NCBI GenBank assembly: GCA_947177485.1
Contig: CAMWUR010000006.1
Location: forward strand, 1-54,329
Reading direction: 5' to 3'
Source of the DNA: an uncultured Helicobacter sp.
GTDB taxonomy: Bacteria > Campylobacterota > Campylobacteria > Campylobacterales > Helicobacteraceae
DNA length: 54,329 nt
Below are positions 10,230 through 34,764 of the stretch, one piece after another (positions within the stretch are counted from its first letter, which is position 1; each line of letters opens with the position of its first letter). Made by a program: the position numbers and the translations under genes. The notes under the pieces are model-generated. The model did not search any database, was not told where the DNA came from, and was given only the letters and a program-made list of their open reading frames with translations.

Positions 10230-11137
10230 GCATTCTCCTTATAGGACGGCAGAGTGGTTGTTTGGTGTAACAAGCGCGCGTTTTGTACATCGAGCTCGAT
10301 TTGCGCGCACAATTCTAGCAAATCGGCAAAGGCACGATTGGCGCGCAAACGATGCAAAAAATACACAGACATTTTGCTAGGAATCTGCGATTCAATCAGA
10401 TAGACACTCGCATTTTTGATAAAATCGGGCATTTCTCTTTCAGGAGCAAGCACATGCGTTTCGAATGCAAATTGATGGTCTGTGCTCAAGCGATTGCCCA
10501 AAAAACTAATGGAACGATATAATAAACCACCAAGCCGCGTATATGTGAGATAAACGCCACTCTTTGGCTGCACAAAATCAAGCGCACAGACATTGAGTGT
10601 CGGGATTAATGTTTTTTTGCCAATCCCCTGTCCGCGCACAATCTCGCCCTCTATGGCATAACTTCGCCCCAGAAACGCGTTTGCCTTTTCAATCTCCCCA
10701 TTTTGTAGCAATGCACGAATCGTGTCGGTATGAATCGGGTAACCATGGTAGGAGACTTCGGGAATCACCACCACTTCACCGGCAAAGAGACAGGCAATGT
10801 CGCTTGCGCTACATTCACGATTTTTGCCAAAATAGAAATCTTCTCCAACAACCACGCGCGAAAGACGTGGAAATTTGCGCCCAAGAAGTGCAAAGAAATC
10901 AGCGCCACTTAGGTTACGAATCGATTCCCATTGCACTTCAAAAAGAGGGAAAGGAATCATCTCTTGTTTCATCGAATCAGAGCTTAGAATCTGCTTAGGA
11001 ATTTTGACTACCAAAACAGCGCCGCCTGCGCCAAGAGCGGCGAAAAGCTCGCGGTGTGCGCGATGTAATCCATCAAATTTGCCAATCGCAATCGAGACGA
11101 CATTGTCATCGTGAGAGATAGAGAAAAGATTCTGCAT
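10226..11137 (-). CDS. ribF: Bifunctional riboflavin kinase/FAD synthetase
   Basis: Converts riboflavin to FMN and FAD. The N-terminal nucleotidyltransferase domain shows AIGKFDGLHRAHRELF (the HxGH-like site) and VVGEDFYFGKNRE. The C-terminal riboflavin kinase part starts near GEIVRGQGIGKKTLIPTLN (family consensus G.G..GR..G.PTAN). The start chosen is the ATG at 11135-11137 because AAGGAGG lies 4-5 bp before it. A longer open frame upstream runs through tlyA in another phase and is not used. The resulting 303 aa is normal. It overlaps the tlyA end by 32 bp. Confidence 0.9.
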   Translation of the reverse strand: MQNLFSISHDDNVVSIAIGKFDGLHRAHRELFAALGAGGAVLVVKIPKQILSSDSMKQEMIPFPLFEVQWESIRNLSGADFFALLGRKFPRLSRVVVGEDFYFGKNRECSASDIACLFAGEVVVIPEVSYHGYPIHTDTIRALLQNGEIEKANAFLGRSYAIEGEIVRGQGIGKKTLIPTLNVCALDFVQPKSGVYLTYTRLGGLLYRSISFLGNRLSTDHQFAFETHVLAPEREMPDFIKNASVYLIESQIPSKMSVYFLHRLRANRAFADLLELCAQIELDVQNARLLHQTTTLPSYKENA

Positions 11138-11804
11138 TCCCCTCCTTTCCAGCAAACAAACATGCCTCGACACTGCGCAACACAAATCCAAGCGCTTGAC
11201 ATTGCACACAAACAGCATGCAACGCCTGCTCAATGCATGCATTGTCCAGCACGACACCCTTTTTGCTCCGTTTTGCTGCTTTGCCAACCTCGAATTGGGG
11301 TTTAAACAACACAATCGCTTCGCCCGCACACAGCCGCGCGATTGAGGGCAAGATATGCGCGAGCGACACAAACGAGACATCGCATGTGATGAGCGGAAAT
11401 GGGGCAGATTGAAAATTGCGAATGTCTGTTTGCTCGAACACGTGCACGCGCGAATCGGCACGGATTTTATGATGTAGCTGCGCGCTGCCAACATCGACAC
11501 ACACGACTTGCTGCGCACCTTTTTGCAATAAAACTTGGGCAAACCCTCCCGTGCTGCTGCCGATGTCGAGCACTTGCGTTGGAACGATGTCGGGGTGGTT
11601 GTCAAGAAAACCAAGCAGCTTGTATGCACCGCGCCCCACAAAATCATCAATAGATTCAAGCACAACATGCGAATCTTCGCTCACAATCTGCGAGGCTTTG
11701 TGCGCAATGCGCCCATCGACACGTACGCTGCCGCGCGCAATCCAGCCTTGTGCCTTCTCGCGGCTCGTATTATATCGTGACGCAATCACCCTATCTAGCC
11801 GCAC
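11106..11804 (-). CDS. tlyA: TlyA-type rRNA 2'-O-methyltransferase (hemolysin A family)
   Basis: A SAM-dependent methyltransferase of the TlyA family, which methylates ribosomal RNA at cytidine 2'-O positions and affects capreomycin sensitivity. An N-terminal S4 RNA-binding domain (about 1-60, MRLDRVIASRYNTSREKAQ) precedes the FtsJ-like core with VLDIGSSTGGF and GRGAYKLLGFLD. At 232 aa it is typical of the short TlyA forms. It begins 9 bp after the lipoprotein-like gene and overlaps ribF. Confidence 0.92.
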   Translation of the reverse strand: MRLDRVIASRYNTSREKAQGWIARGSVRVDGRIAHKASQIVSEDSHVVLESIDDFVGRGAYKLLGFLDNHPDIVPTQVLDIGSSTGGFAQVLLQKGAQQVVCVDVGSAQLHHKIRADSRVHVFEQTDIRNFQSAPFPLITCDVSFVSLAHILPSIARLCAGEAIVLFKPQFEVGKAAKRSKKGVVLDNACIEQALHAVCVQCQALGFVLRSVEACLFAGKEGNAESFLYLSR

Positions 11805-18103: not shown

Positions 18104-19627
18104 TTAATGGTAGAAATGTCGTGTTCCTGTGAAATAGAGGGCGATTTGATGTTCGTTTGCGGCGTCTATCACCTCTTTGTCGCGAATCGAGCCGCCGGGC
18201 TGAATCACGGCTGTGATTCCCGCGCTCGCGGCGCTATCGATGCTGTCGCGAAACGGAAAGAAGGCTTCAGATGCACAAACTGCGCCATGCATGTCGATTT
18301 TGAGTTCATCTGCTTTGCGCAATGCGGCAAGTGCAGCATCGACACGGCTTGTCATGCCCATTCCAATCGCCACCATCGCCTTGTCTTTGACATAGACGAT
18401 ACAATTTGATTTTGTGAGCGCCGCGATTTTGTAGGCAATCGCGAGGTCATCGAGCTCACGTTCGCTCGCTGCGCGTTTGCTCTTGCATTGCATATTTGTG
18501 ATTTCAGCTTCGCTCACATAGTCGGCTTGTTGGAGTAGAAAGCCGCCCTCAATGTGCTTGAAGTTGATTGTGTCATGTGGAATATGCAAAAAGTCAGAAT
18601 TTGTCGCAAAGAGTTTGACACGTTTTTTTGCCGCGAAGATGTCTTGCGCCTCTTGCGTGATTTGCCCAGCGATGATGACTTCGAGATAGTGTTCGTTTAT
18701 GAGTTTGGCGAGCGATTCATCGAGGATTCCATTGATTGCCGCAACGCCGCCATAGGCAGAGATGGGGTCGCACGCAAGCGCGGCTTTGTACGATTCTGCC
18801 AATGTGTCGCGCAATGCGAATCCGCAGGGGTTGCCATGTTTGACAATCGCCACAGCAGGACGTGCGCCAAAGTTTGTAGCGATTTTTAGCGCTTGGTTGA
18901 GGTCGGCATAGTTGTTGAAGCTCGGCGTGCCTTTGAGTGTGGCGATGTTGTGCCAAAACGTGCCTGATTCATAGAGTGCGCCGCGTTGGTGTGGGTTTTC
19001 GCCATAGCTTGTCGCGCAGACCTTGTGCGCGGTGATGAAATGTGTTGCGCCAAAGTTGTTGTCGATTCGCATGTTCATGTAGTTTGCAATCATTGCGTCA
19101 TAGGCGGCGGTATGTTCGAAAGCTTTTTGCATAAGCCCGCGCCGAAAGTCGAGCGTGTTGCCACCGTTCTTGAGCGCGTCAAGCGCTGTCGCGTAATCGT
19201 TTGGGCTTGTCAGCACAATCACATCGGCAAAGTTCTTTGCCGCTGCACGAATGAGTGCTGGTCCCCCGATGTCGATATTTTCGATGATGGTGTCCCAATC
19301 ATTCGTGTTTTGCACAGTTGCAGCAAAAGGATAGAGATTGACACAGACAAGGTCGATAGGTTCGATTCCATGTTCTTGCGCGACATCTGTATCGCGCTCA
19401 CGGCGAAAGAGAATCCCGCCGTGGATTTTGGGGTGCAATGTCTTGACGCGTCCGCCGAAAAGCTCGGCGCTGTTTGTGTACTCGCCAACATCTGTCGCAT
19501 GGATTTGCGCTTCGCGCAGTGCAGCGAGTGTCCCACCTGTCGAGAGAATCTCGAACCCAAACGCGCAGAGCTCCTTTGCAAACGCAACGATTCCACTCTT
19601 GTCGCTCACGCTAAGGAGGGCTTTCAT
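18104..19627 (-). CDS. purH: Bifunctional AICAR transformylase/IMP cyclohydrolase
   Basis: Catalyses the last two steps of IMP synthesis. The N-terminal MGS-like cyclohydrolase domain has [18 protein letters not shown] and STGGT, with [16 protein letters not shown]. The C-terminal transformylase domain carries [12 protein letters not shown] and ends [17 protein letters not shown]...FTGTRHF. The ATG at 19625-19627 ([12 protein letters not shown]) is preferred, giving 507 aa; a start 11 codons earlier lacks family support. hemL follows after 13 bp. Confidence 0.96.
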
Positions 19628-19699
19628 TGTATCGTATCCTTTTTTATTTGCATGATACAAGGAGTTGGCTAATCGTTTTGTGTCTGCTTGGTTTGGTTT

Positions 19700-20023
19700 C
19701 TAATTTTCGTGCTTTTTGTTGCGAATCTGCACTTGTTCGAGGATTTTTTCAAGATGATTTTGCGCACCATTCACGGCATACAGCGGAGCGGGGTCTTTCG
19801 TGCCCTTCTGCTCGCGCTCAAAGGCGATTTGCTCGAGATAGTTCGGCGTGTCTTTGAGTCGTTCGCTGATTTGGTCAAGCGATTTGTTCTCGAGGTTGGC
19901 AAGCAATTGCGCAAACCACGCGCCCTCCGCGCCCTCTGTGTCGTTCTCTAACTGTTCTTTGGGCTTTGTTGTTTCTTTTACTGTGGTTTGTTGCGGTGTC
20001 GAGAAGCTAGAATCGATTTTCAT
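19700..20023 (-). CDS. Hypothetical protein, 107 aa
   Basis: Unknown soluble protein. The start MKIDSSFSTPQQ (ATG 20021-20023) has AAAGGAA 6-7 bp upstream and a TATGAT box further up; a longer frame starting at 20215 would cross the hsdR promoter and is rejected. The N-terminal 40 residues are polar and probably disordered. The rest looks helical (AWFAQLLANLENKSLDQISE, then YLEQIAFEREQKG). It lies upstream of purH on the same strand and is divergent from hsdR. No function is proposed. Confidence 0.6.
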   Translation of the reverse strand: MKIDSSFSTPQQTTVKETTKPKEQLENDTEGAEGAWFAQLLANLENKSLDQISERLKDTPNYLEQIAFEREQKGTKDPAPLYAVNGAQNHLEKILEQVQIRNKKHEN

Positions 20024-20047
20024 TGTTTTTCCTTTGTATTTGAAATC

Positions 20048-20053
20048 ATCATA
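20048..20053 (-). promoter_or_regulatory. Candidate -10 box for the 107-aa hypothetical gene
   Basis: Reads TATGAT on the minus strand, about 25 bp before the ATG at 20023, and is back to back with the hsdR -10 box. Confidence 0.35.
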
Positions 20054-20082
20054 CCACAAGCAAAAATTGTGCCCTATTGTGC

Positions 20083-20088
20083 TATAAT
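20083..20088 (+). promoter_or_regulatory. Candidate -10 box for hsdR
   Basis: A perfect TATAAT inside GCTATAATGG. Transcription would begin near 20095, which places an upstream TTG (20077) before the transcript and supports translation from 20119. Confidence 0.5.
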
Positions 20089-20118
20089 GGCAAATCGTTT
20101 GCGGTGAGGGTGGCGGCT

Positions 20119-23007
20119 TTGAAACCAGAACAAAAAGCGAGACTAGAGATTGACAAATTGCTTTGCGAAGCAGGGTTTTTGGTGTTGGACTATCGAGATT
20201 CCAAGCCCGATACAAAAGTCCATTATGCTGTACGTGAGTTTGTGCTCAAAAATGGCACGAGGGCAGATTATCTTGTGTTTGTGGCAGGCAGAGCATGCGC
20301 GGTAATAGAAGCAAAAAAGCCAAATGCTTTAAGTGGCGCGGAGAATCAATCGCTAAATTATGCGCAAAATCTCGCAAAAGAGCTAGGTGAGATTACTTTC
20401 CTCTACCAAAGCAATGCAAACGAGCTATTTTTTACGAATCTCAAAGAGCCAAAGCCAAAATCGCGCAAGATTTTTGCGTTCCATTCACCAAAAGAATTGC
20501 AGGCAAAACTTGATGATGAAAGCTCGTTACGTGCTCGAATCTCGCAGCTCCCCTTGCTTGAAAGTGCGCGATTGCGCGACTGCCAAAAAGACGCAATCGT
20601 TGGCTTAGAAAAATCGTTGCAAAACAACAAGCAACGTGCGCTAGTTTATATGGCAACAGGCGCGGGCAAAACTTTCACGGCATGTAATATCGCCTATCGC
20701 CTAATTGCACACGCAAAGGCAAAACGTATTCTATTTCTTGTCGATAGAAACAATCTCGGCAAGCAGACTAAAAAAGAATTTGATAATTTTGCAATCCCTA
20801 AAGACAAGAGACATTTTAGCGAGATTTATAATGTGGTGCATTTGGAAACAAATGTGATTCCAGAAGAATCTAAAGTCGTGATAACGACAATCCAGAGGCT
20901 TTATTCAATGCTATGCGGAGAATCGGAGTTTGATTCTGCTAATGAAGAACATTCAAGCTTTGAAAGCCACGATGTCCAAACAAAAGACGTTGCGTATAAT
21001 CCCCAAATGGGCATTGATACGTTTGATTTTATCATCATCGATGAATGCCACCGCAGCATTTATGGACAATGGCGGCAAGTGCTTGAATATTTTGACGCGT
21101 TTCTGATTGGGCTTAGTGCGACACCCTCGAAGCACACATTAGGTTTTTTCGCCCAAAATGTCGTGGCGCAATATGACTTAGAAAAATCCATTCTCGATAA
21201 AGTCAATGTGGGCTATGAAATCTTTAGAATCAAAACTCAAATCAGCGAAAAGGGCAGCGTCATTGAAGCAAGTGCAGAATTTCAAGTGCCATTCCGCGAT
21301 AAAGAGACGCGAAAAATTGGCTATGAAACCCTAGAAGAAGATTTAGAATATTCCAAATCAGACCTAGACCGTTCTGTGCTCGCCCCCAGCCAGATTCGCA
21401 CGATTTTGCAGACCTATAAAGATAAAGTATTCACAGAGCTTTTCCCCGAGCGCAAGCCAAGCTATATCCCCAAAACCTTGATTTTTGCCAAAGACGATAA
21501 CCACGCTGAAGAAATCGTGCGCCTTGCGCGAGAAGTGTTTAATGCAGATAATGAGTTTGCGCAAAAAATCACCTATAATATCGGCAATCAGAATCCGCAC
21601 GAGCTCATCAATCGTTTTAGAAACTCCAAGCAATTTAGAATCGCCGTAACCGTGGATATGATAGCCACAGGCACAGACATTAAGCCGCTCGAGGTTTTAA
21701 TTTTTATGCGCGACATTAAATCGGCGAGCTATTATGCGCAAATGGTTGGACGCGGGGTGCGCAGCATTCATCGTGAGGATTTACGCGCGGTTACGCCAAA
21801 TGCAGATTCCAAAACGCATTTTTATGTGATAGACGCAGTCGGCGTGAGCGAGAGTCAAAAGCTCGATTCGCGTCCGTTAGAACGCAAAAAGTCTTTGAGC
21901 TTCAAAGAGATTTTAAAACATGTGCGTGAGAGTGTGGAAAAAGGCGATTATGAAAAAGATATATTATTAAGCTTTGCCTCGAGGCTAAGTCGCCTAGAGC
22001 TGAAATTAAGCGATGAGGATAATACGAGTTTAAAAGATTTAAGCGGCAAGAGCCTCTGTGCGCTTGCGGGTGAGATTTTGGAGTTTGCCGATTCGGAATG
22101 TTTGGAACACTCACTTTGCCAAGCTGAAACTTTACCTTGTCAAACCGAGATTCCCAGCTGCCAAGCTGAAAGCCCCTTGAGCGATTCTAAATCTCCCATT
22201 TATGATTCTGCGTCTCCCATTTGCGATTCTGTGCCTCCTTCTTATCATTCTGAACCCAATCTCCCTTGTCATTCCGAGTCTCCCATTTGTCATTCTGAGC
22301 CTTTAGGCGAAGAATCTCAAAACAAAGAATCCCCGAGCAACTCACTAAAGATTTTCACAGACAAAAACTTTTGCAACCTGCTTTTGACAATGGCGAAAAA
22401 GAGCAGAATCTATATCGATGAAACCTCGCAAGATTGCGTGCTGCACACGGGGTTTGACACGCAGAATGCGCAGAATCTCATCAGCAGATTCCTTGATTTT
22501 ATCTTGAGAAACAAGGACGAAATCGAGGCGCTAAGCATCATCTATGCGCGGGATTACAAGAATCGCCACTTGACATATAGGGTGATTAGTGAGCTCGCAA
22601 CCAAGCTAAAGCGCGATTCCATGGATATTCCAAGCCTCTGGAACGCGTTTGCTTTGCGCGATAAAGACAGGGTGAGCAGGAATCCGAGCAAGAACCTCAC
22701 GAATCTCATCAGCCTCGTGCGCTATGCGCTGCATCATGACGACAGGCTGCAAGATTTTGCGATTATTTCCATTTCGCGCTATAATCTATGGATAGGACGT
22801 TGTGTGCAAAAAGGCATGCGCTTCAGCCCCGAGCAGGAGGAGTTTTTGGAGCTCATCAGGGATTACATCATCGCAAATGGAATCGCCGAAATTGCCGATA
22901 TTCAAGAGATTTGCGCCGATGTTGGCGGGCTGTATCGCGCAAGGGCATTGTTCAAAGAATCGCTCGAAACGTTGATTGATGAGCTCGGAATGGCGTTGGT
23001 GGGGTAA
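20119..23007 (+). CDS. hsdR: Type I restriction enzyme R subunit
   Basis: The motor/nuclease subunit of a type I restriction system. The start chosen is the TTG at 20119, giving MKPEQKARLEIDKLLCEAGF, which matches the usual N-terminus of this family, with GAGGG 8-9 bp upstream. The nuclease domain (about 45-70) has ADYLVFV...AVIEAKK, the D/ExK core. Helicase motifs are ATGAGKTF (about 178-186), DECHRS (about 306-311) and QMVGRGVRS. The C-terminal domain follows. Between them, about residues 662-740, lies a Cys/Ser/Pro/Glu-rich linker made of dispersed repeats (22105-22335). Without it the protein has normal length. The frame is intact. Confidence 0.95.
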   Translation: MKPEQKARLEIDKLLCEAGFLVLDYRDSKPDTKVHYAVREFVLKNGTRADYLVFVAGRACAVIEAKKPNALSGAENQSLNYAQNLAKELGEITFLYQSNANELFFTNLKEPKPKSRKIFAFHSPKELQAKLDDESSLRARISQLPLLESARLRDCQKDAIVGLEKSLQNNKQRALVYMATGAGKTFTACNIAYRLIAHAKAKRILFLVDRNNLGKQTKKEFDNFAIPKDKRHFSEIYNVVHLETNVIPEESKVVITTIQRLYSMLCGESEFDSANEEHSSFESHDVQTKDVAYNPQMGIDTFDFIIIDECHRSIYGQWRQVLEYFDAFLIGLSATPSKHTLGFFAQNVVAQYDLEKSILDKVNVGYEIFRIKTQISEKGSVIEASAEFQVPFRDKETRKIGYETLEEDLEYSKSDLDRSVLAPSQIRTILQTYKDKVFTELFPERKPSYIPKTLIFAKDDNHAEEIVRLAREVFNADNEFAQKITYNIGNQNPHELINRFRNSKQFRIAVTVDMIATGTDIKPLEVLIFMRDIKSASYYAQMVGRGVRSIHREDLRAVTPNADSKTHFYVIDAVGVSESQKLDSRPLERKKSLSFKEILKHVRESVEKGDYEKDILLSFASRLSRLELKLSDEDNTSLKDLSGKSLCALAGEILEFADSECLEHSLCQAETLPCQTEIPSCQAESPLSDSKSPIYDSASPICDSVPPSYHSEPNLPCHSESPICHSEPLGEESQNKESPSNSLKIFTDKNFCNLLLTMAKKSRIYIDETSQDCVLHTGFDTQNAQNLISRFLDFILRNKDEIEALSIIYARDYKNRHLTYRVISELATKLKRDSMDIPSLWNAFALRDKDRVSRNPSKNLTNLISLVRYALHHDDRLQDFAIISISRYNLWIGRCVQKGMRFSPEQEEFLELIRDYIIANGIAEIADIQEICADVGGLYRARALFKESLETLIDELGMALVG
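22105..22335 (+). repeat. In-frame dispersed repeats within hsdR
   Basis: The coding sequence repeats short units such as CATTCTGAG.CT, TGCCAAGCTGAAA and GATTCTG.GTCTCCCATTT. They encode CQAE, CHSE, YDS and CDS tandem motifs and end CHSEPLGEESQ. The core GTCATTCTGA...GAAGAATCTC equals the intergenic unit at 15819-15862 (reverse strand) and those in hsdS. It forms a linker between helicase and C-terminal domains without breaking the frame. Confidence 0.8.
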
Positions 23008-23035
23008 GAAAATCAAAACACAAAGGAGACAGCAA

Positions 23036-23515
23036 ATGAAAGCATTAGACGTGGCAAGATATTTGATTGCTTTAAATGATAAGGAATGTGCAGATGAGAA
23101 GTCCGATATTTCTAAGTTAAAGTTGCAAAAGTTGCTGTATTATACGCAAGGATATTATTCAGCTTTATATGATAAACCTTTGTTTGAAGAGGAGATTCAA
23201 GCGTGGCAACATGGACCTGTTGTAAAAGAAGTGTATCAGGAATTTCGTTCAATAGATAATAATTTTATTCCTACTGAAGAGAATAAAATGAGCGAGGCAG
23301 AAATTGCCAAACTTGATAAAGATAAAAGGGAGTTAATCGAAGATGTATTTTATCTTATGGGGCAATATTCTGCATGGAAACTTCGAGATAAGACACATGA
23401 AGAATCTCCATGGAAAGATAATTATAAAGAGGGAGAAAAAGATATAGTAATTCCAAAAAATGAAATCAAAAAATATTTTAAACAATATGTAGAAAACGAC
23501 GATGAAGATGATTAA
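23036..23515 (+). CDS. Panacea (SocA/DUF4065)-type antitoxin-like protein
   Basis: 159 aa starting at the ATG 23036-23038 behind AAGGAGA; a longer frame overlapping hsdR is rejected. The sequence has the DUF4065/Panacea pattern: ALDVARYLI near the start, SKLKLQKLLYYTQGYYSALY, then PLFEEEIQAWQHGPVVKEVY. Panacea proteins are known as adaptable antitoxin domains paired with varied toxins. The next gene overlaps the end by 14 bp, as expected of a toxin-antitoxin pair. The C-terminus is acidic (ENDDEDD). It lies between hsdR and hsdS and is much more AT-rich than hsdR. Confidence 0.85.
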   Translation: MKALDVARYLIALNDKECADEKSDISKLKLQKLLYYTQGYYSALYDKPLFEEEIQAWQHGPVVKEVYQEFRSIDNNFIPTEENKMSEAEIAKLDKDKRELIEDVFYLMGQYSAWKLRDKTHEESPWKDNYKEGEKDIVIPKNEIKKYFKQYVENDDEDD

Positions 23516-23960
23516 AGATGCAAATGTTGCAAAGCACAGAGAATACGCAAACAAAAACCTTAACATAACACACAGTGGATTATGTTTGATTTCACTTGAA
23601 AAAGTGATAGAATGCAAGGAATATGGTTTGTGTGTTTCTAAAGAACATGCACGTTATAATGAACAAAATGCCAAAAAATACAATACTCAATTAATGAAAT
23701 TGTTTTGTTATCTTACTCAAAGGTCTTGGAATGAAATTGATAGCATAAGGAGAGATCGAGAATATGGACACGAACGTTTGCCAATTAAATGTGTCCATAT
23801 TAACCATGTTAAAGAGCATTTTAAAAAACTAGGTAAAGATAATTGCGATATTTTTCGTTTTGGAGCTCAAAATTTCCGTGCTTGTGGATATAGAGAGAAG
23901 AATATTTTTTATTTGATTTGTATAGATTATGATTTTTCTCTCTATAATCATGGAAATTAA
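23502..23960 (+). CDS. Putative toxin partner of the Panacea protein
   Basis: 152 aa, not recognised with confidence. It overlaps the antitoxin-like gene by 14 bp, which argues for translational coupling. It is basic and His/Cys-rich, with no membrane segment. The C-terminal third (GAQNFRACGYREKNIFYLIC then IDYDFSLYNHG) resembles the last strands of RelE-like or other compact RNA-acting folds, but this is only an impression. Context makes it the likely toxin; it could also be an accessory protein of the hsd locus. Only 3 bp separate it from hsdS. Confidence 0.55.
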   Translation: MKMIKDANVAKHREYANKNLNITHSGLCLISLEKVIECKEYGLCVSKEHARYNEQNAKKYNTQLMKLFCYLTQRSWNEIDSIRRDREYGHERLPIKCVHINHVKEHFKKLGKDNCDIFRFGAQNFRACGYREKNIFYLICIDYDFSLYNHGN

Positions 23961-23963
23961 AAT

Positions 23964-25211
23964 ATGATGCCAAATAATTCATTTCAGAATTTCCCGCAAG
24001 GTTGGGAAACGAAAACTTTGGGCGAAGTGTGCGAAATCACTATGGGGCAATCTCCCAAAGGTGAACAAGTTTTTTCACACAATAAGGTTTCAGATTGTCA
24101 TTCTGACCTTGAGTGTAACGAAAGGGAAGAATCTCAAAAAGATTCCACATTAAAAGATATTTCGGCTACGCCTCAATATGACAAAATGACATCAAGTTGT
24201 CATTCTGAGGGCGACAAGCCCGAAGAATCTCATATTGCGGATTCCCATAGAGATATTTCGCATTTTTCAAATGCTCAATATGACAAAGAAAACAATCTCC
24301 CGCAAGGTTGGGAAACGAAAACTTTAGGGGAAGTGTGCGAAATCACTATGGGGCAATCTCCCAAAGGCGAACAAGTTTTTTCACACAATAAGGTTTCAGA
24401 TTGTCATTCTGACCTTGAGTGTAACGAAAGGGAAGAATCTCAAAAAGATTCCACATTAAAAGATATTTCGGCTACGCCTCAATATGACAAAATGACATCA
24501 AGTTGTCATTCTGAGGGCGACAAGCCCGAAGAATCTCATATTGCGGATTCCAATAGAGATATTTCGCATTTTTCAAATACTCAATATGACAAAGAAAACA
24601 ATCTCCCGCAAGGTTGGGAAGTTAAAACTTTAGGAGAGATATTTTTAATTGAGAGAGGCGGTTCTCCAAGACCTATAAAAGAATACCTAACTACCGATTC
24701 AGATGGCATTAATTGGATAAAAATAGGCGATACGAAAAACATTACAAAATATATTACTGAAACAGCACAAAAAATCAAACCAGAGGGCAAAAAACATTCG
24801 CGATTTGTAGAGATTGGAGATTTGATATTATCCAATTCAATGAGTTTTGGAAAGCCATATATCATGAAAACGACAGGTTGTATTCATGACGGGTGGGTTG
24901 TTTTTAAACAAAGCAAAAAAGTTATTGATGAGGAATTTTGCTATTATGTTTTAAGTTCTAGTGAAATCTACGCACAATTTGATAAACTTGCAACAGGCTC
25001 AACAGTCAAAAATCTTAATATTGAACGCATTAAGCAAATCCAAATCCCCCTCCCACCCCTCGAAACACAAAAACAAATCGTAGAGATTCTCGATTCCAAA
25101 TTTGCTGCCCTAGAGAATCTCGAGAGAGAAACCAATGCGAGTTTGGAAAAGCTCCAAAGGCTCAAATCCTTACTCCTCAACCTTGCCTTTAAGGGCGAGC
25201 TGATATGTTAA
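23964..25211 (+). CDS. hsdS: Type I restriction enzyme S subunit with tandem internal repeats
   Basis: The DNA-recognition subunit, 415 aa. The normal part is residues about 215-415: one target-recognition domain beginning LPQGWEVKTLGEIF, then LPPLETQKQIVEILDSKFAALE and a C-terminal coiled coil. Ahead of it are two near-identical 102-aa units, each starting PQGWETKTLGEVCEITMGQSPKGEQV, the beginning of a different recognition domain, cut short by in-frame dispersed repeats (CHSDLECNEREESQ, LKDISATPQYDK, CHSEGDKPEESH). There is thus one complete recognition domain instead of two. Half-size S proteins can work as dimers in other type I systems, so activity is possible. Its stop lies in a 19-bp inverted repeat. 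Confidence 0.88.
   Translation: MMPNNSFQNFPQGWETKTLGEVCEITMGQSPKGEQVFSHNKVSDCHSDLECNEREESQKDSTLKDISATPQYDKMTSSCHSEGDKPEESHIADSHRDISHFSNAQYDKENNLPQGWETKTLGEVCEITMGQSPKGEQVFSHNKVSDCHSDLECNEREESQKDSTLKDISATPQYDKMTSSCHSEGDKPEESHIADSNRDISHFSNTQYDKENNLPQGWEVKTLGEIFLIERGGSPRPIKEYLTTDSDGINWIKIGDTKNITKYITETAQKIKPEGKKHSRFVEIGDLILSNSMSFGKPYIMKTTGCIHDGWVVFKQSKKVIDEEFCYYVLSSSEIYAQFDKLATGSTVKNLNIERIKQIQIPLPPLETQKQIVEILDSKFAALENLERETNASLEKLQRLKSLLLNLAFKGELIC
23993..24604 (+). repeat. Two tandem 306-bp repeats inside hsdS
   Basis: The motif CCCGCAAGGTTGGGAA occurs at 23993, 24299 and 24605, exactly 306 bp apart. The first two units are almost identical (differences such as TTGGGC/TTAGGG and CATAGA/AATAGA). 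The third begins the real recognition domain and diverges after about 15 bp. The period is a multiple of three, so copy number can change without a frameshift. Confidence 0.95.
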
Positions 25212-25241
25212 AAAAGTTTCATTTTTTTAACATATCAGCTC
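25197..25241. repeat. 19-bp perfect inverted repeat at the hsdS/fic junction
   Basis: GAGCTGATATGTTAAAAAA (25197-25215) is mirrored exactly at 25223-25241, with a 7-bp loop. The left arm holds the last codons and stop of hsdS. ATGTTAAAAAA occurs again at 25245. It could be a terminator-like or translation-blocking hairpin, or a scar of recombination. Confidence 0.85.
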
Positions 25242-25283
25242 AATATGTTAAAAAAATCCAAATTTGATAACACAAGGAAGGGC

Positions 25284-26354
25284 ATGCAAGAGTTTATCCC
25301 CGAAGAATTACCACTGAAAATAGACTTAAATAATATTATTATTGGTAAACTTATAAAAGCTTCAAGGGAACTAAGCAAGCTAAATGGAATTGCAAAGATT
25401 ATTCCTAATCAAGCCATTCTCATTAATGCACTTGTTTTGCAAGAAGCAAAGGATTCGAGCGAAATAGAAAACATTATTACAACACATGATGAACTTTTTA
25501 TAGCTCAAGTAGATGAACATAAAATAACTCAAGCTGCTAAAGAGGTGCAAAGCTATCAAAGTGCCTTAATGAAAGGCTTTAATTTAATTCAGCAAGATAA
25601 AGTTTTTAAAAATTCACATATTTTAGAAATTCAAAAAAGACTTGAACGCAATAATGCAGGTTTTAGGAGACAAAGTGGCACAACACTTCAAAACCAAAAG
25701 GGTGAAATAAAATATATTCCACCACAGCATTATGATGATATTGTACGTTTAATGAGTAATTTGGAACGATATATCAACGATGATTCTTTGCATGATATAG
25801 ACCCACTTATTAAAATAGCGATGATTCATTATCAATTTGAAAGTATTCACCCTTTTTATGATGGCAATGGAAGAAGCGGAAGGATTGTTAATATCTTATA
25901 CCTTGTCTATAAAGAGTTATTAGATTTGCCTATTTTGTATTTAAGTGGCTATATAGTTAAAAATAAAGCCCTTTATTATGAACTCTTGCAAAAAGTACGT
26001 GATAAGAATGCGTGGGAAGAGTGGATTTTATATATATTAGAAGGTGTCTCACAAACTGCTTCTAGCACAATTAAAATTATAAATGAGATTAAAAATTTAA
26101 TGGCAAATACTAAAAATATTTTGCAAACAAAAGAACCAAAAATTTATAGTAAAGATTTTGTAGAATCTCTCTTTATTCACCCTTATACTAAAATAGATTA
26201 TATTGTGGAACGTTTGAAAATATCAAGGCAAACTGCCTCTAAATATTTAAAGATTTGCCAAGAATTAAGAATTTTAAAATGCGTTAATATTGGAAGAAAT
26301 AAGTATTATGTAAATATTAAATTGTTTGAATTGTTTAAAAAAGGAATAAGCTAG
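25284..26354 (+). CDS. Fic-family protein (probable AMP transferase)
   Basis: A Fic domain protein with the complete active-site motif HPFYDGNGRSGR, expected to transfer AMP or another nucleotide to a target protein. SSEIEN in the N-terminal region matches the inhibitory-helix pattern [S/T]xxxE[G/N], placing the autoinhibitory segment in the same chain. The last 70 residues form a winged-helix-like domain (YIVERLKISRQTASKYLKIC). The ATG at 25284 is preferred because AGGAAGGG precedes it; an in-frame ATG at 25245 lacks a ribosome site and lies beside the hairpin. Genes unrelated to restriction, including Fic types, are known between hsdS and hsdM in Campylobacter relatives. Confidence 0.85.
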   Translation: MQEFIPEELPLKIDLNNIIIGKLIKASRELSKLNGIAKIIPNQAILINALVLQEAKDSSEIENIITTHDELFIAQVDEHKITQAAKEVQSYQSALMKGFNLIQQDKVFKNSHILEIQKRLERNNAGFRRQSGTTLQNQKGEIKYIPPQHYDDIVRLMSNLERYINDDSLHDIDPLIKIAMIHYQFESIHPFYDGNGRSGRIVNILYLVYKELLDLPILYLSGYIVKNKALYYELLQKVRDKNAWEEWILYILEGVSQTASSTIKIINEIKNLMANTKNILQTKEPKIYSKDFVESLFIHPYTKIDYIVERLKISRQTASKYLKICQELRILKCVNIGRNKYYVNIKLFELFKKGIS

Positions 26355-26401
26355 AGTTTTTGTGTTTTTAAGGCTAAGATTAAATTATAAAAAGGATAAC
26401 G

Positions 26402-27829
26402 ATGAGTGAAAAAGCGATTGTCGCAAAAGTGTGGAATTTCGCAACGATTTTGCGCGATAGTGGCGTGAGCTATACGGATTATGTTGCTCAAATTAGCTAT
26501 TTGCTATTTCTGAAAATGGAAAACGAGAGAGAAAATATCGGCGAACATAGCAAAATCCCTGAAAATTGCAAATGGGAACGGCTCATGCGAATGGACGGAT
26601 TGGAGCTAGAAAGTGCATACAATAGCGCGCTTGCACAGCTTGCAGAATCTGATGGCGTGATAGGGCTCATCTATAAAGGTGCACAAAATAAAATCAAAGA
26701 ACCTGCGAATCTCAAGAAACTTTTTGTCTTAATCAATAGTGAAACATGGCTAGGCTTGAAAGTCGATGTCAAGGGCGCGATTTATGAGGGCTTGCTTGCC
26801 AAAAACGCCACAGAGACAAAGGCGGGAGCGGGACAATATTTCACGCCTCGCGTGCTCATTCGTTGCATTGTTGAACTTATGAATCCTCATTATAATATGG
26901 AGATTTGCGACCCAGCATGTGGCACGGGCGGATTTTTGCTACGTGCGTATGAGGTGATGAAAAAGCAAACAAACGACAAAGAAGAATTACGAAAACTACG
27001 AAATGAGAGACTCTATGGCAAAGAAATCACGCCTTTGGTGGCGTCTATGTGCGCGATGAATCTTTATTTGCATGGAATCGGGGGTGATGAGGGCATTATA
27101 GAGGTTGGAGATTCTCTAAATGAGCGCGGGAATAGACGCTTTGATATGGTGCTCACAAATCCCCCATTTGGCAAAAAGTCTGCGACAAAGATTCTAGCAG
27201 AGAATGGCAAAGTCAAGACGCAAAAAGAGGAATATAATCGTGAGGACTTTTTCGCAACGACCTCTAATAAACAGCTGAATTTTTTACAACACATTATGAA
27301 TATTCTTAAAAATGGTGGCAAGGCAGCGGTTGTGTTGCCCGATAATGTGCTTTTTGAGGCAGGCGCGGGCGAAAAGGTGCGCAAGAGACTTTTGGAGGAT
27401 TTTAATCTACATACGATATTACGCCTGCCCACAGGAATCTTTTATGCGCAAGGCGTCAAAGCGAATGTGCTATTTTTTGACAAAGTCGCTTCAGAAAAAG
27501 ATGCAACCTCGAAAGTATGGGTGTATGATATGCGCACGAATATGAATCTAAGTCTTATAAGCAATCCCTTGAGCGAGGAACATTTGAAAGATTTTGAGAA
27601 TTGCTATAAAGTAGGCGCGATAGAATTGCGGGAAGAAAGCGAGAGATTCCGTGCTTTTAGCATTGCAGAAATTCAAAAGAAAGATAAAACAAATTTGGAT
27701 ATATTTTGGCTCAAAGATGAGAGTTTGGAAGATGTAGAAAATTTGCCAAGTCCGGAGGTTTTAGCAAGAGAGATTTGCTCTCATTTGGAATCTGCATTAA
27801 GAGAAATGCGGCGATTAGGGGTAGATTAA
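26402..27829 (+). CDS. hsdM: Type I restriction enzyme M subunit
   Basis: The N6-adenine methyltransferase subunit. It has the N-terminal HsdM helical domain (VWNFATILRDSGVSYTDYV), the SAM-binding motif DPACGTGGFLLRAYE (about 169-183) and the catalytic NPPFGKK (about 253-259). GAGQYFTPRVLI is the classic stretch before motif I. At 475 aa it is normal. A ribosome site, AAAGGATAACG, precedes the ATG. The order hsdR - antitoxin - toxin - hsdS - fic - hsdM, all on one strand, suggests one operon with cargo genes inserted. Confidence 0.95.
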   Translation: MSEKAIVAKVWNFATILRDSGVSYTDYVAQISYLLFLKMENERENIGEHSKIPENCKWERLMRMDGLELESAYNSALAQLAESDGVIGLIYKGAQNKIKEPANLKKLFVLINSETWLGLKVDVKGAIYEGLLAKNATETKAGAGQYFTPRVLIRCIVELMNPHYNMEICDPACGTGGFLLRAYEVMKKQTNDKEELRKLRNERLYGKEITPLVASMCAMNLYLHGIGGDEGIIEVGDSLNERGNRRFDMVLTNPPFGKKSATKILAENGKVKTQKEEYNREDFFATTSNKQLNFLQHIMNILKNGGKAAVVLPDNVLFEAGAGEKVRKRLLEDFNLHTILRLPTGIFYAQGVKANVLFFDKVASEKDATSKVWVYDMRTNMNLSLISNPLSEEHLKDFENCYKVGAIELREESERFRAFSIAEIQKKDKTNLDIFWLKDESLEDVENLPSPEVLAREICSHLESALREMRRLGVD

Positions 27830-27852
27830 TTTTGTTTTAAGATTTTATAGAC

Positions 27853-27858
27853 TATAAT
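27853..27858 (+). promoter_or_regulatory. Candidate -10 box for guaA
   Basis: TATAAT in ACTATAATGC, about 28 bp before the guaA ATG at 27886. The AGGA before the start lies in ACAGGAAAATTAGA. Confidence 0.5.
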
Positions 27859-27885
27859 GCCGCAAAAATTCACAGGAAAATTAGA

Positions 27886-30800
27886 ATGCATGTGCAGATT
27901 TTAGTGCTCGATTTTGGCTCTCAATACACGCAGCTCATCGCGCGGAGATTGCGTGAATATGGAGTTTATACCGAGATTGTGCCCTATTTTGAAAAACTAG
28001 ATTCGATTAAAAGCAAAAATCCCAAAGGCATTATTCTAAGCGGAGGACCTGCAAGCGTATATGAAAAAGATGCTTATAAGCCCGATAGCGCGATTTTCTC
28101 GCTCGGGATTCCAATCTTAGGAATCTGCTATGGTATGCAGCTTATCGCCCAACATTTTGGCGGACGCGTCATCAAGGCAGACGCGCAAGAGTTTGGCAAG
28201 GCGGTGCTAGAGATTGTGGAATCTTATGCGGATAAAGATTCTCAAACTTCATCTTGTCTCACATTTCAAGATGTTTCTCAAGACAAAAACACACAAGTGC
28301 CGATGAGCCTTTCTTTTACGCTTTTTAGCCACAGCAAGTTTCCTCAAATGCTAGGCGCAATGCTTGATTTATGGGAAGATTCTGTGCGAGCAAGCCACAC
28401 TTTTTTAACTAAGCAAGACATTGCAGAGATTAAGCCAGAAGTCAAAGCAGCACTCAAAAGCTCTCAAAATATCATCACTGCGACAGATAAAAAGGATTTT
28501 TTGGGCTTTATTGGTGTGGAAAATAATAAGATTGAAATGCTTTTTGTCGCTTCAAGTGCCTTTAGAAAAGGTGTGGGCAAGGCATTGTTAAAGGAGGCGT
28601 TGGAGCGATATTTGAAAGATTATCCTGACATTTTGGTGGATTGTAATGAGCAAAATACGCAAGGCTTGGCATTTTATCAGCACTTAGGCTTTGAAATAAT
28701 GAGCAAAAGCGCGCAAGATTCTGCAGGAAGAGACTTTCCTATCGTGCATTTAAAAATAGACAAAGAAAGGTTTGAAAATGCCTTAAAACCTTTGCATTAC
28801 ACAATTTCTCCTGCAAGAAAAGAAGATTTGGAAGAGATTTTAGCCTTGCAAAAAATTGCCTTTGTTGATGAAGCAAGGCAAATCGGCATAATGGATATTC
28901 CGGCTCTAAAGCAGGATTTAAAGAGTATCCAAGAAGAGTTTGAAATGCACACTTTTTTGAAATGCACATTTAAAGGCAAGATTATTGGTTCTGTGCGTGG
29001 ATACACAAAGCAGGACACAACTTATCTTGGCAAACTCTTTGTGGATTCTTCCTATCGGCAAAGAGGCATTGGAAGTGCGCTTGTTCAAGCCCTTTGTGCC
29101 ACACTTCCCGCAAAGCGATATGAGATTTTTACAAGCGAAAAAAGCCTTGAAAATATCGCACTCTATGAGAAGCTAGGATTTGTGGAGTATAAAAGAGAGA
29201 AGCTAAAGGGATTTCCCATTCAAGCGGTGTTTTTGCAAAAACAACAACCCATTTGCGAGAGTGAGCGTATCTTTTTGCGCCCTTATACACAGGCGGATTT
29301 TGTGCAATTACACAGAATCTTAAGTGATAAAGAGACAATGTATGCGTGGGGGCACGGCTTTAGTAAAAAGGAAAGTCAAGAATGGCTGGATAAACAATTG
29401 GTGCATTATCAACAATATGGCTTTGGAATCTGGGCAATTGTGGAGAAGCAAAGCGGCAAGATTATCGGCAATGCGGGGCTAAATTATGCAGAGATAAACC
29501 TAAAGGGCAAAACTCAAGAAGTTGTAGAAATCGGCTATCTTTTACACCGCGATTTTTGGAACAAAAGCTATGGAAGCGAAGCGGCTAGAATGTGTGTAAA
29601 ATATGGCTTTGAAACTTTAGGATTAGAGGAGGTATATTGCCTCATCAAAGAGGATAATTTGAGCTCTCTTAAAGTCGCAAAAAAGCTTAGTATGCAAAAA
29701 GTGGGGGAATATCTTAAGCCTTATAAGGGTAAAAAAATAAACCATTTGGTTTTTAAGCTTGACAAAAAAGTATGGCAAGAATTAGAAAATAGCGCCACGC
29801 AAGGTTTTAAATCTTGCTCACTCTTTAAAGGTGTGAAGCAAGCTTCTATCGTATGGATGAGCCACGCAGACAAGGTGGAATCTATCCCAAGCGGTTTTGT
29901 GGAGCTCGCGCGTAGCGGGAACACGCATTATTGCGCGATTGCGGATTCTAAGCGCAAAATTTATGCTTTGCAGTTTCACCCTGAAGTCGTGCATAGTGAG
30001 TGTGGGGGGCAGATGTTGCAAAACTTTGCAGTAGGGATTTGTGGCGCGGATACAAGCTGGAATATGCGGAATTTCGCGCAAAATGAGATTGAAAAATTGC
30101 GCCATATCATTTATGGAAGCGAAAATGTGGATTTGCAAAATTCTGCTTTTATTACATTAAAAGTTGCTATTAAAGAAAAAGGAAAGAAGCAAACGATAGA
30201 AAACCTCCTACAAATTTGGGAAGATTCTGTGCGATCCACGCAGCAAGTGAGCGAAGCTTTTATCACCCACAGACGTAAAGAGATAGAAAAAGATTATATT
30301 GCAAAGGCAGAGGAAATATTGATTGCTAAAAAAGCAGGGGAATGGCTAGGCTTTATCGCGGTGAAAAGCAATGAAATTACTCTACTTTTTGTCGCGCCTC
30401 AATATTTTAGCAAAGGGATTGGCAAGGCACTGCTTAAAGAAGCAATAAATTGGCATTTGTATAAATTTGACAGCATTATCCTTAATAGTCGTAAGCAAGC
30501 TTTGGGATTTTATCAATCTTTGGGATTTAAAAAGGCAGGCGAACCCTTTTGTGTTGGAAGTTATCAGAAAATTATGCTAACGCCTATGGAGGTAGCGAGG
30601 GAGCAATTACAGCGCACTTTGGAATCTCCAAAGGATTCTTTGTCTTTTATCACTCTTGTAGAATCTTTTAAACAAGTTGGGAAAGCACAAGCAATTCAAC
30701 ATCTTGCCTCTATTTGGGAGCAGGGCGCAAGAGCTACCCACAAAGATTTAAGCGAAGATGAGATTGCGGGTATGAGAGAGGAAATACGTGAAGCTGTTTT

Positions 30801-31725
30801 AAAATCTAACAATCTACTTATAGCTCAAAAAAATGAAGAATGGCTAGGTTTTATTGAGATAGAAAAAAATGAAATTACAATGCTCTTTGTAGCTCCAAAT
30901 GCCTTTAAAAAAGGTGTGGGTAAAGCACTGCTAAAAGAGGCATTGAGGCGATATTTATATACATTTGAAGTTATAAAAGTCGCAAGCCTTGAGTGGGCTT
31001 TGAGTTTCTATCAGCATTTAGGATTTACAAAAACAGGAGAAAAACCTATCCCTGCAGGGAGTGGTGGTAAATTTTCACCAAAACTTATCCCCCTAAGCAT
31101 TGCACGTGAGAGTTTGCAAAAGTCTTTGGGGCTTGAGGCACAAGGAAAATGTAAGAGGGTGCGTTGCGCTTGGGCTACCGATAAGGACGAATCGGCACGT
31201 AAATTATATGAAAATTATCACGATACAGAATGGGGCAAACCACTACACGAGGATAAAAAACTTTTTGAATTTTTGATTTTGGAGGGCTTTCAAGCGGGGC
31301 TTTCTTGGATTACGATTCTTAAAAAGCGAGAGAGTTTTCGGGTGGCGTTTGATGAATTTGATTACCATAAAATCGCCGCTTATGATGAAAGCAAAATAGA
31401 ATCTTTAATGCACAATGAGGGGATTATTAGGAATCGTGCCAAAATAGAAGCTGCGATTATCAATGCTAAGGCGTTTATGGCAGTGCAAAAGGAGTTTGGA
31501 AGCTTTGATAGTTATATTTGGGGCTTTGTGGGAGGTAAGCCGATTATCAATGCCTTTGAGAGTATCGCAGATTTGCCCGCTTCTACACCGCTTTCGGATA
31601 CAATCGCTAAAGATTTGAAAAAGCGTGGGTTTAAGTTTGTCGGCACTACAACTATGTATGCGTTTATGCAGGCTATTGGAATGGTGAATGACCACCTCAC
31701 CTCGTGCTTTAAGAGGCATAAATAA
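27886..31725 (+). CDS. guaA: GMP synthase amidotransferase domain fused with five GNAT domains and Tag glycosylase
   Basis: One uninterrupted 1279-aa frame. Residues 1-113 are the first part of the GuaA glutaminase, with nucleophile C81 in GICYGMQL. Residues about 145-292, 300-452 and 455-632 are three GNAT acetyltransferase domains (for example [15 protein letters not shown] and [15 protein letters not shown]). At about 646 GuaA resumes exactly ([20 protein letters not shown]) and supplies H698 and E700, so the catalytic triad is complete, ending near SENV (748). Two more GNAT domains (about 755-900 and 918-1075) follow. Residues 1090-1279 form a complete 3-methyladenine DNA glycosylase I, with zinc ligands C1094, H1112, H1270 and C1274 and catalytic E1133. 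The ATP-pyrophosphatase half is a separate gene at 33835. Confidence 0.92.
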
Positions 31726-33834: not shown

Positions 33835-34764
33835 ATGAAAACAAAAAATCAAACATCAACAAATAAAGTTTTATGTGCGGTAAGTGGTGGGGTGGATTCT
33901 AGCGTTGTCGCGGCGTTGCTCCACCGTGCAATAGGGGACGACCTTATTCCTGTGTTTGTGGATACCGGGCTTTTACGCAAGGGCGAGAGAGAGGCGGTGG
34001 AGAAGATGTTTAGAGAAAACCTCAAAGTGCCACTAATCACTGCAGACGCTAGTGCGTTGTTTTTAAGTCGCCTTAAAGGCGTGGTAGAGCCAGAGAAAAA
34101 GCGTAAAATCATCGGCGAGACTTTTATCGAAGTCTTTGAAAAAGAGGCAAAAAAGCACAATACCAAAGGCGAGATAAAATTCCTCGCGCAAGGCACACTC
34201 TATCCTGATGTGATTGAATCTGTAAGCGTCAAGGGACCTTCTAAAACGATTAAAAGTCATCATAATGTCGGGGGCTTGCCAGAGTGGATGAAATTTGAGC
34301 TCATTGAGCCTTTGCGGGAGCTTTTTAAAGACGAGGTAAGAGCGTTAGGGCGAGAGCTTGGAATGCCCGAATCTATGCTAATGCGCCACCCATTCCCAGG
34401 ACCCGGGCTTGCCATACGCATTATGGGCGAGGTGAATAAGGCGGATTTGGACTTATTGCGTGAGGCAGATTCTATTTTTATAGAGGAACTCCACAAACAA
34501 GGTTATTATGACAAAGTGTGGCAGGCGTTTTGTGTGCTTTTAAATGTGCGGAGCGTAGGTGTAATGGGCGATAATCGCACTTATGATAATACGATTTGTG
34601 TGCGTGCGGTAGAAGCAATTGATGGAATGACAGCGACTTTTGCGCATTTGCCCCACGATTTTTTGGAATCTGTAAGTAATCGCATTATCAACGAAGTAGA
34701 GGGGATTAACCGCGTGGTGTATGACATCACAAGCAAACCCCCGGGCACAATTGAGTGGGAGTAG
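33835..34764 (+). CDS. guaA: GMP synthase ATP-pyrophosphatase and dimerisation domains (detached C-terminal half)
   Basis: 309 aa matching the C-terminal half of GuaA. The ATP-pyrophosphatase P-loop SGGVDSS is at residues 17-23. Other signatures are [53 protein letters not shown] and the C-terminus KPPGTIEWE. The upstream 11 residues ([11 protein letters not shown]) are not GuaA-like and replace the link to the glutaminase. The ATG has AAGGA 7-8 bp upstream. With the product of the 27886 gene it could form a two-subunit GMP synthase like that of archaea; ammonia transfer would then depend on non-covalent contact. The nucleotide composition is closer to core genes than to its neighbours. Confidence 0.93.

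Follow-up and report, generated by a model that had tools for sequence, protein, structure and literature searches.

Probable loss of a recognition domain and duplication of its stump in a type I hsdS gene of an uncultured Helicobacter

The DNA analyzed here as a whole, referred to as the window, is a stretch of 54,329 nucleotides from an uncultured Helicobacter sp. (GenBank assembly GCA_947177485.1, contig CAMWUR010000006.1). It carries a type I restriction-modification operon in the order hsdR, SocA/Panacea protein gene, small ORF, hsdS, Fic protein gene and hsdM, and the hsdS gene is thus co-encoded with hsdM and hsdR, as expected of a gene for an HsdS subunit. The Rfam search gave no structured-RNA match in positions 19000-30000. 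The genes of the operon are located as follows:

20077..23007, + strand: hsdR, EcoEI-like, 976 aa, with element-derived sequence at 22266-22322
23036..23515, + strand: SocA/Panacea-domain gene
23964..25211, + strand: hsdS, 415 aa, with one complete recognition domain (TRD) and two stump units (ORF; Pfam Methylase_S, E 1.7e-31)
25245..26354, + strand: gene for a Fic protein, SoFic-like
26402..27829, + strand: hsdM (N6_Mtase, E 1e-74; HsdM_N)

At positions 27886-31725 a 1279-aa ORF was found that, as read by eye, combines a GuaA-glutaminase-like start with several acetyltransferase-like and DNA-glycosylase-like stretches. The C-terminal part of GuaA is encoded separately at 33835-34764, with a cytosine methyltransferase-like gene between the two, and in a congener (G003, compared below) the same parts form one continuous 1397-aa ORF.

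The hsdS product was assigned to the Methylase_S family (PF01420) with 110 bits against a curated cut-off of 22, the best stretch covering residues 215-395, and Foldseek and phmmer matched it to the solved S subunits 1yf2, 5ybb, 3okg and 2y7c, whose fold its complete TRD is predicted to share. Tandem Repeats Finder reported a tandem array at 23988-24634 with a period of 306, 2.1 copies, 97% matches and 0 indels, which rules out an origin by chance or low complexity. The two complete units differ at 6 of 306 positions (98% identity, without indels) and have 183 bp as their longest identical run. Both are in frame 0 of the ORF, which stays free of stops, and each of the remaining five frames of the array contains between 5 and 17. 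The presence of two in-frame, near-identical 306-bp units, as proposed by a sequence-only reading of the locus, is thereby confirmed. Its starts at 23993, 24299 and 24605 describe the same array shifted by five bases, but the third of them opens only a 38-bp partial copy, which is the beginning of the next TRD.

Each unit opens with 107 bp of codons for about 35 initial TRD residues (NFPQGWETKTLGEVCEITMGQSPKGEQVFSHNKVS), and its remainder consists of two copies of a 90-bp element; the unit is therefore a truncated TRD start joined to repeat-derived sequence, just as the earlier reading had it. A unit amounts to 102 codons, so that its gain or loss by recombination would keep the frame, which bears out the further statement that 102 residues can be added or removed without a frameshift. 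A TRD-start repeat of about 38 bp occurs in three copies with a spacing of 306 and 306 bp. The parts of hsdS are:

23988..24293, + strand: unit 1, 306 bp, TRD1 start plus two 90-bp elements
24095..24184, + strand: element A of unit 1, 90 bp, corresponding to the element inside TRD1 of the congener (ends TTGTCATTCTGAC / CTCAATATGACAA, inverted match 10/13)
24172..24184, repeated at 24478-24490 in unit 2, + strand: CTCAATATGACAA, shared sequence holding the putative deletion junction, identical to the TRD1 and linker elements of the congener
24197..24286, + strand: element B of unit 1, 90 bp, corresponding to the linker element of the congener (inverted ends 11/13)
24294..24599, + strand: unit 2, 306 bp, 98% identity to unit 1
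24401..24490, + strand: element A of unit 2
24503..24592, + strand: element B of unit 2
24600..24637, + strand: third copy of the TRD-start repeat, opening the surviving TRD (family D3, 84% to the reference copy)
24606..25148, + strand: the sole complete TRD, together with the start of the conserved helix (Pfam; invariant residues kept)
25059..25190, + strand: long C-terminal conserved helix, residues 366-409 (AlphaFold2, pLDDT mostly above 90)

The genome is a 97-contig draft and both copies have the 183-bp stretch in common, and a short-read assembly might in principle have created the tandem copy or collapsed further ones. Such an artefact is considered highly improbable: assemblers tend to collapse copies and not to invent diverged ones, the differences polarized by the congener fall on both copies, and the unit ends match real internal homology. 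The draft state and the length of the identical run nevertheless leave room for a collapsed extra copy.

The 90-bp element starts with TTGTCATTCTGA and ends with CTCAATATGACAA, has imperfect terminal inverted repeats (10/13 and 11/13) and translates in its open frame to CHSE...EES...RDIS...QYDK. It is dispersed in the genome of the window, where a relaxed search cut-off yielded 64 DNA matches; like the other counts for this element, this one rests on searches. A strict DNA pattern matched in 5 places only, because the hairpin loop and the flanks vary. Being short (about 60-105 bp), non-coding, multi-copy and bounded by terminal inverted repeats (10-11/13), it was classified as MITE-like; literature searches by peptide or DNA string returned no relevant paper with an earlier description. 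On another contig of the same genome (C71 of G000, L138:1563-2408), a tandem array of 318 bp x 2.7 with 98% matches carries the CHSE...QYDK element outside long genes, so that an array alone does not imply a coding role. Contig C13 contains genes for an RVT_1 reverse transcriptase and a Y1_Tnp (IS200-like) transposase (L134:8699-10330 and 10849-11376), which are flanked by hsdS and hsdR in a second type I operon, and this transposase might be a candidate mobilizer of the element.

The same operon, at about 90% DNA identity, is present in G003 and contains there a full two-TRD hsdS encoding 645 aa with two Methylase_S stretches. Over hsdR, the end of hsdS, the Fic gene and hsdM, the DNA of the window is 86-97% identical to that of this one comparator, which comes from a 61%-complete genome; guaA lies beyond. 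In the congener, one element is located inside TRD1 after GEQVF and several are located in the linker before TRD2; the positions of these elements explain the makeup of the 306-bp unit. The closest TRD1 relatives have no element at the GEQVF position, where their alignments are weak (31-34% identity). The window's hsdS tracks local bases 10-209 of the G003 gene, then the linker elements (about 1110-1229) and then the TRD2 start, and is missing about 0.9 kb that comprise the TRD1 body and the central conserved region. Two stretches, of 58 bp (93% identity) and 50 bp (88% identity), link the TRD1 element of G003 to its linker elements, and the two TRD starts of this gene are alike over 41 bp at 73%. 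Compared with this second allele, the window's gene shows TRD1 lost, the second TRD replaced and the stump duplicated.

Relocation of TRD1 was rejected, as a search with the congener's TRD1 minus its element gave, at E 1e-20, no match to the lost body in the rest of the assembly to which the window belongs. Among other genomes of the genus inspected for orthologous alleles, G001 contains no more than a broken hsdM, close to the start of a contig, and G002 and G004 contain only distant hsdM relatives. The hsdR gene of G003 (L135:13761-15896) encodes 711 aa versus 976 aa in the window, apparently without part of the helicase region.

Given the alignment to the congener, the element pairs and the absence of a TRD1 body elsewhere, an in-frame deletion through element-element recombination is the economical reading of this difference, an event that we infer. 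The reverse direction is disfavoured because a truncated stump would have to predate the canonical two-TRD gene. The ancestor would have been a two-TRD gene like the congener's allele. In a first step, the MITE-like element in TRD1 would have recombined with the related linker elements, removing about 0.9 kb in frame and fusing the TRD1 start, at the shared CTCAATATGACAA, to element sequence 306 bp upstream of TRD2. After this deletion the TRD-start repeats of about 38 bp would flank a stretch of 306 bp, so that in a second step an unequal exchange between them would duplicate exactly this stretch in frame. The proposed order and mechanism of both steps are deduced from sequence comparison, and for the second step the unit boundaries suggest them. 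At one site in its start, unit 2 has a C, as does the third copy, and the first copy has a T; this is expected of a junction, yet it is weak evidence because the congener also has a C.

The sequence-only reading had further suggested that target specificity or subunit assembly might vary among cells, and this is unsupported by the present data. The loss of TRD1, which is earlier and had been missed, is the real specificity change. For a phase-variable array, in which the number of units would shift often by slippage or recombination and alter specificity or subunit assembly, one may cite the 98% identical in-frame copies with a partial third copy, as well as the homology supplied by the element and the TRD-start repeats. 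The units, however, contain neither a complete TRD nor a conserved helix, and their element parts were predicted with a pLDDT below 50, so that copy number should not itself alter the target. When the six inter-copy differences were polarized by the congener, copy 1 accounted for three derived changes and copy 2 for two, the remaining one being ambiguous; such independent substitutions in both copies argue against homogenization by frequent gain and loss. Elsewhere in this genome, moreover, a comparable array of 318 bp x 2.7 is present outside long genes. Frequent variation of this kind is accordingly judged improbable, and rapid copy-number switching is not supported, one genome per species having been examined. 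Copy number can still change via the same repeats, but probably only rarely and without itself altering specificity.

In a canonical HsdS chain, a complete TRD and a conserved helix are each present twice. The window's product has one TRD and one long helix instead, which corresponds to the anatomy of a half-S subunit. The surviving TRD retains every residue that is invariant among 40 aligned homologues; its type occupies the first position in most homologues and the second in some. In an AlphaFold2 model computed from this 40-sequence alignment, the surviving TRD and helix 366-409 mostly reached a pLDDT above 85, the TRD-start stumps about 60-72, and the element-derived residues 43-103 and 142-205 values below 50, suggesting that the 102-aa units make up an N-terminal extension that is for the most part disordered. 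In the congener, helices D1 and D2 agree at 27 of 53 positions, which makes self-pairing plausible. The likeliest product is a single-TRD half-S, perhaps active as a homodimer by analogy with EcoDXXI delta N, which would probably associate with two HsdM subunits and read an interrupted palindrome.

The main rival to such a product is decay. The hsdS gene could be inactive, namely a deletion remnant in a silent system, with the array as a neutral by-product of element recombination. The loss of TRD1 and of the central conserved region, the similar array outside long genes and the restriction of known half-S homodimers to type IC would fit decay, against which speak a frame that stays open through deletion and duplication, the retention of all invariant residues in the surviving TRD and the intact appearance of hsdR and hsdM. 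Decay is therefore regarded as a serious possibility, albeit one on the less probable side. On balance it appears likely that a type I hsdS lost its first recognition domain, had its stump duplicated and works, if at all, by means of the one TRD and helix left intact, probably as a half-S.

The closest known process comes from H. pylori, in whose group 2 and 3 hsdS genes repeats mediate the movement, loss and duplication of TRDs, which is termed DOMO (Furuta et al. 2011, PMC3077401). The H. pylori genes contain repeats at TRD starts and ends, and among their alleles are one-TRD forms and one with a TRD duplicated via unequal exchange (PMC3077401). The start repeat measures 37 bp in H. pylori group 2 (PMC3077401) and about 38 bp in the window, where its three copies 306 bp apart are direct repeats usable for exchange, and where the loss of a TRD and the duplication of its stump are seen between two alleles only. 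In contrast to DOMO, the homology for the loss would have been provided by dispersed MITE-like elements in TRD1 and linker, and a truncated stump and not a TRD was duplicated. Half-S homodimers are represented by EcoR124I delta50, EcoDXXI delta C and delta N and the natural NgoAV; they are reported only for type IC, and EcoDXXI delta N, with the C-TRD only, is an active homodimer (reviewed in PMC3874165). The window's HsdS resembles them in that each chain has a single TRD and a single conserved helix, and EcoDXXI delta N in the retention of the C-terminal TRD alone. It differs in that the known examples are type IC and were shown to be active, whereas here HsdR is EcoEI-like, the activity of HsdS is a prediction and its chain is extended N-terminally by 200 residues. 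In EcoR124I/II hsdS, short repeats between the two TRDs set the spacer length (PMC3077401). These too are in-frame repeats of changeable copy number inside hsdS, but the units of the window precede its only TRD and no spacer role is expected of them.

Searches with the element peptides alone identified, in related genomes, 26 hosts whose open frames reach about 250 aa or exceed it; their classes were assigned by Pfam or through clear identity to a protein already classified. In our tally, 21 are restriction-modification genes. Genes of this kind that carry the element encode HsdR, HsdM, HsdS, type IIG, type ISP and N6/N4 methyltransferases, and the preference was noted from loci that include window 22266-22322, L134, L137, L169, L171, L142, L143, L155, L157, L225 and L212. 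The other five, by which an exclusive association was rejected, comprise two saccharopine dehydrogenase orthologues, a RadA-like protein, LuxE and a GIY-YIG/nucleotidyltransferase ORF, the last lying inside an hsd operon. The length of the element is divisible by three in 36 of 40 copies within long ORFs; outside these, lengths are mixed (17 of 24 divisible by three, including repeated and short-frame copies). Rickettsia palindromic elements are small dispersed MITE-like inserts with inverted ends that lie in frame inside proteins. The window's element resembles them in size, dispersal, inverted ends and maintenance in frame within proteins, and differs in that its long-ORF hosts are mostly restriction-modification genes. 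Intragenic small mobile sequences have been reviewed (PMC2229807).

The host bias is a lead and not proof, because some of the hosts are orthologues of one another and a background rate of 2-5% was assumed, not measured. It is tentatively proposed, with considerable doubt, that this element family accumulates preferentially and in frame in the linkers of restriction-modification genes and provides portable homology by which recognition domains may be deleted, swapped or inverted, the window's hsdS being one product. Two further loci were noted. At L164:3856-6005 (G046), two opposed hsdS-like ORFs share a TRD sequence that begins at the element and is identical from TKKVNCHSEGKARRISTNEES through to the end, and they resemble an invertible hsdS pair. 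At L166:5649-7181 (G018), adjacent half-size HsdS ORFs of 270 and 225 aa have an element-like stretch before the second, and no hsdM or hsdR was seen within the 11 kb examined.

Reshuffling of TRDs in hsdS is known already; the putative element-supplied homology and the duplication of a stump set the present case apart. The proposed two-step route describes at base resolution how small dispersed repeats may remodel a type I recognition subunit, and its single-TRD product offers a test of half-S homodimers outside type IC. If the host bias of the element holds with proper controls, such elements would give this bacterial family a general way of altering the specificity of its DNA methylation.
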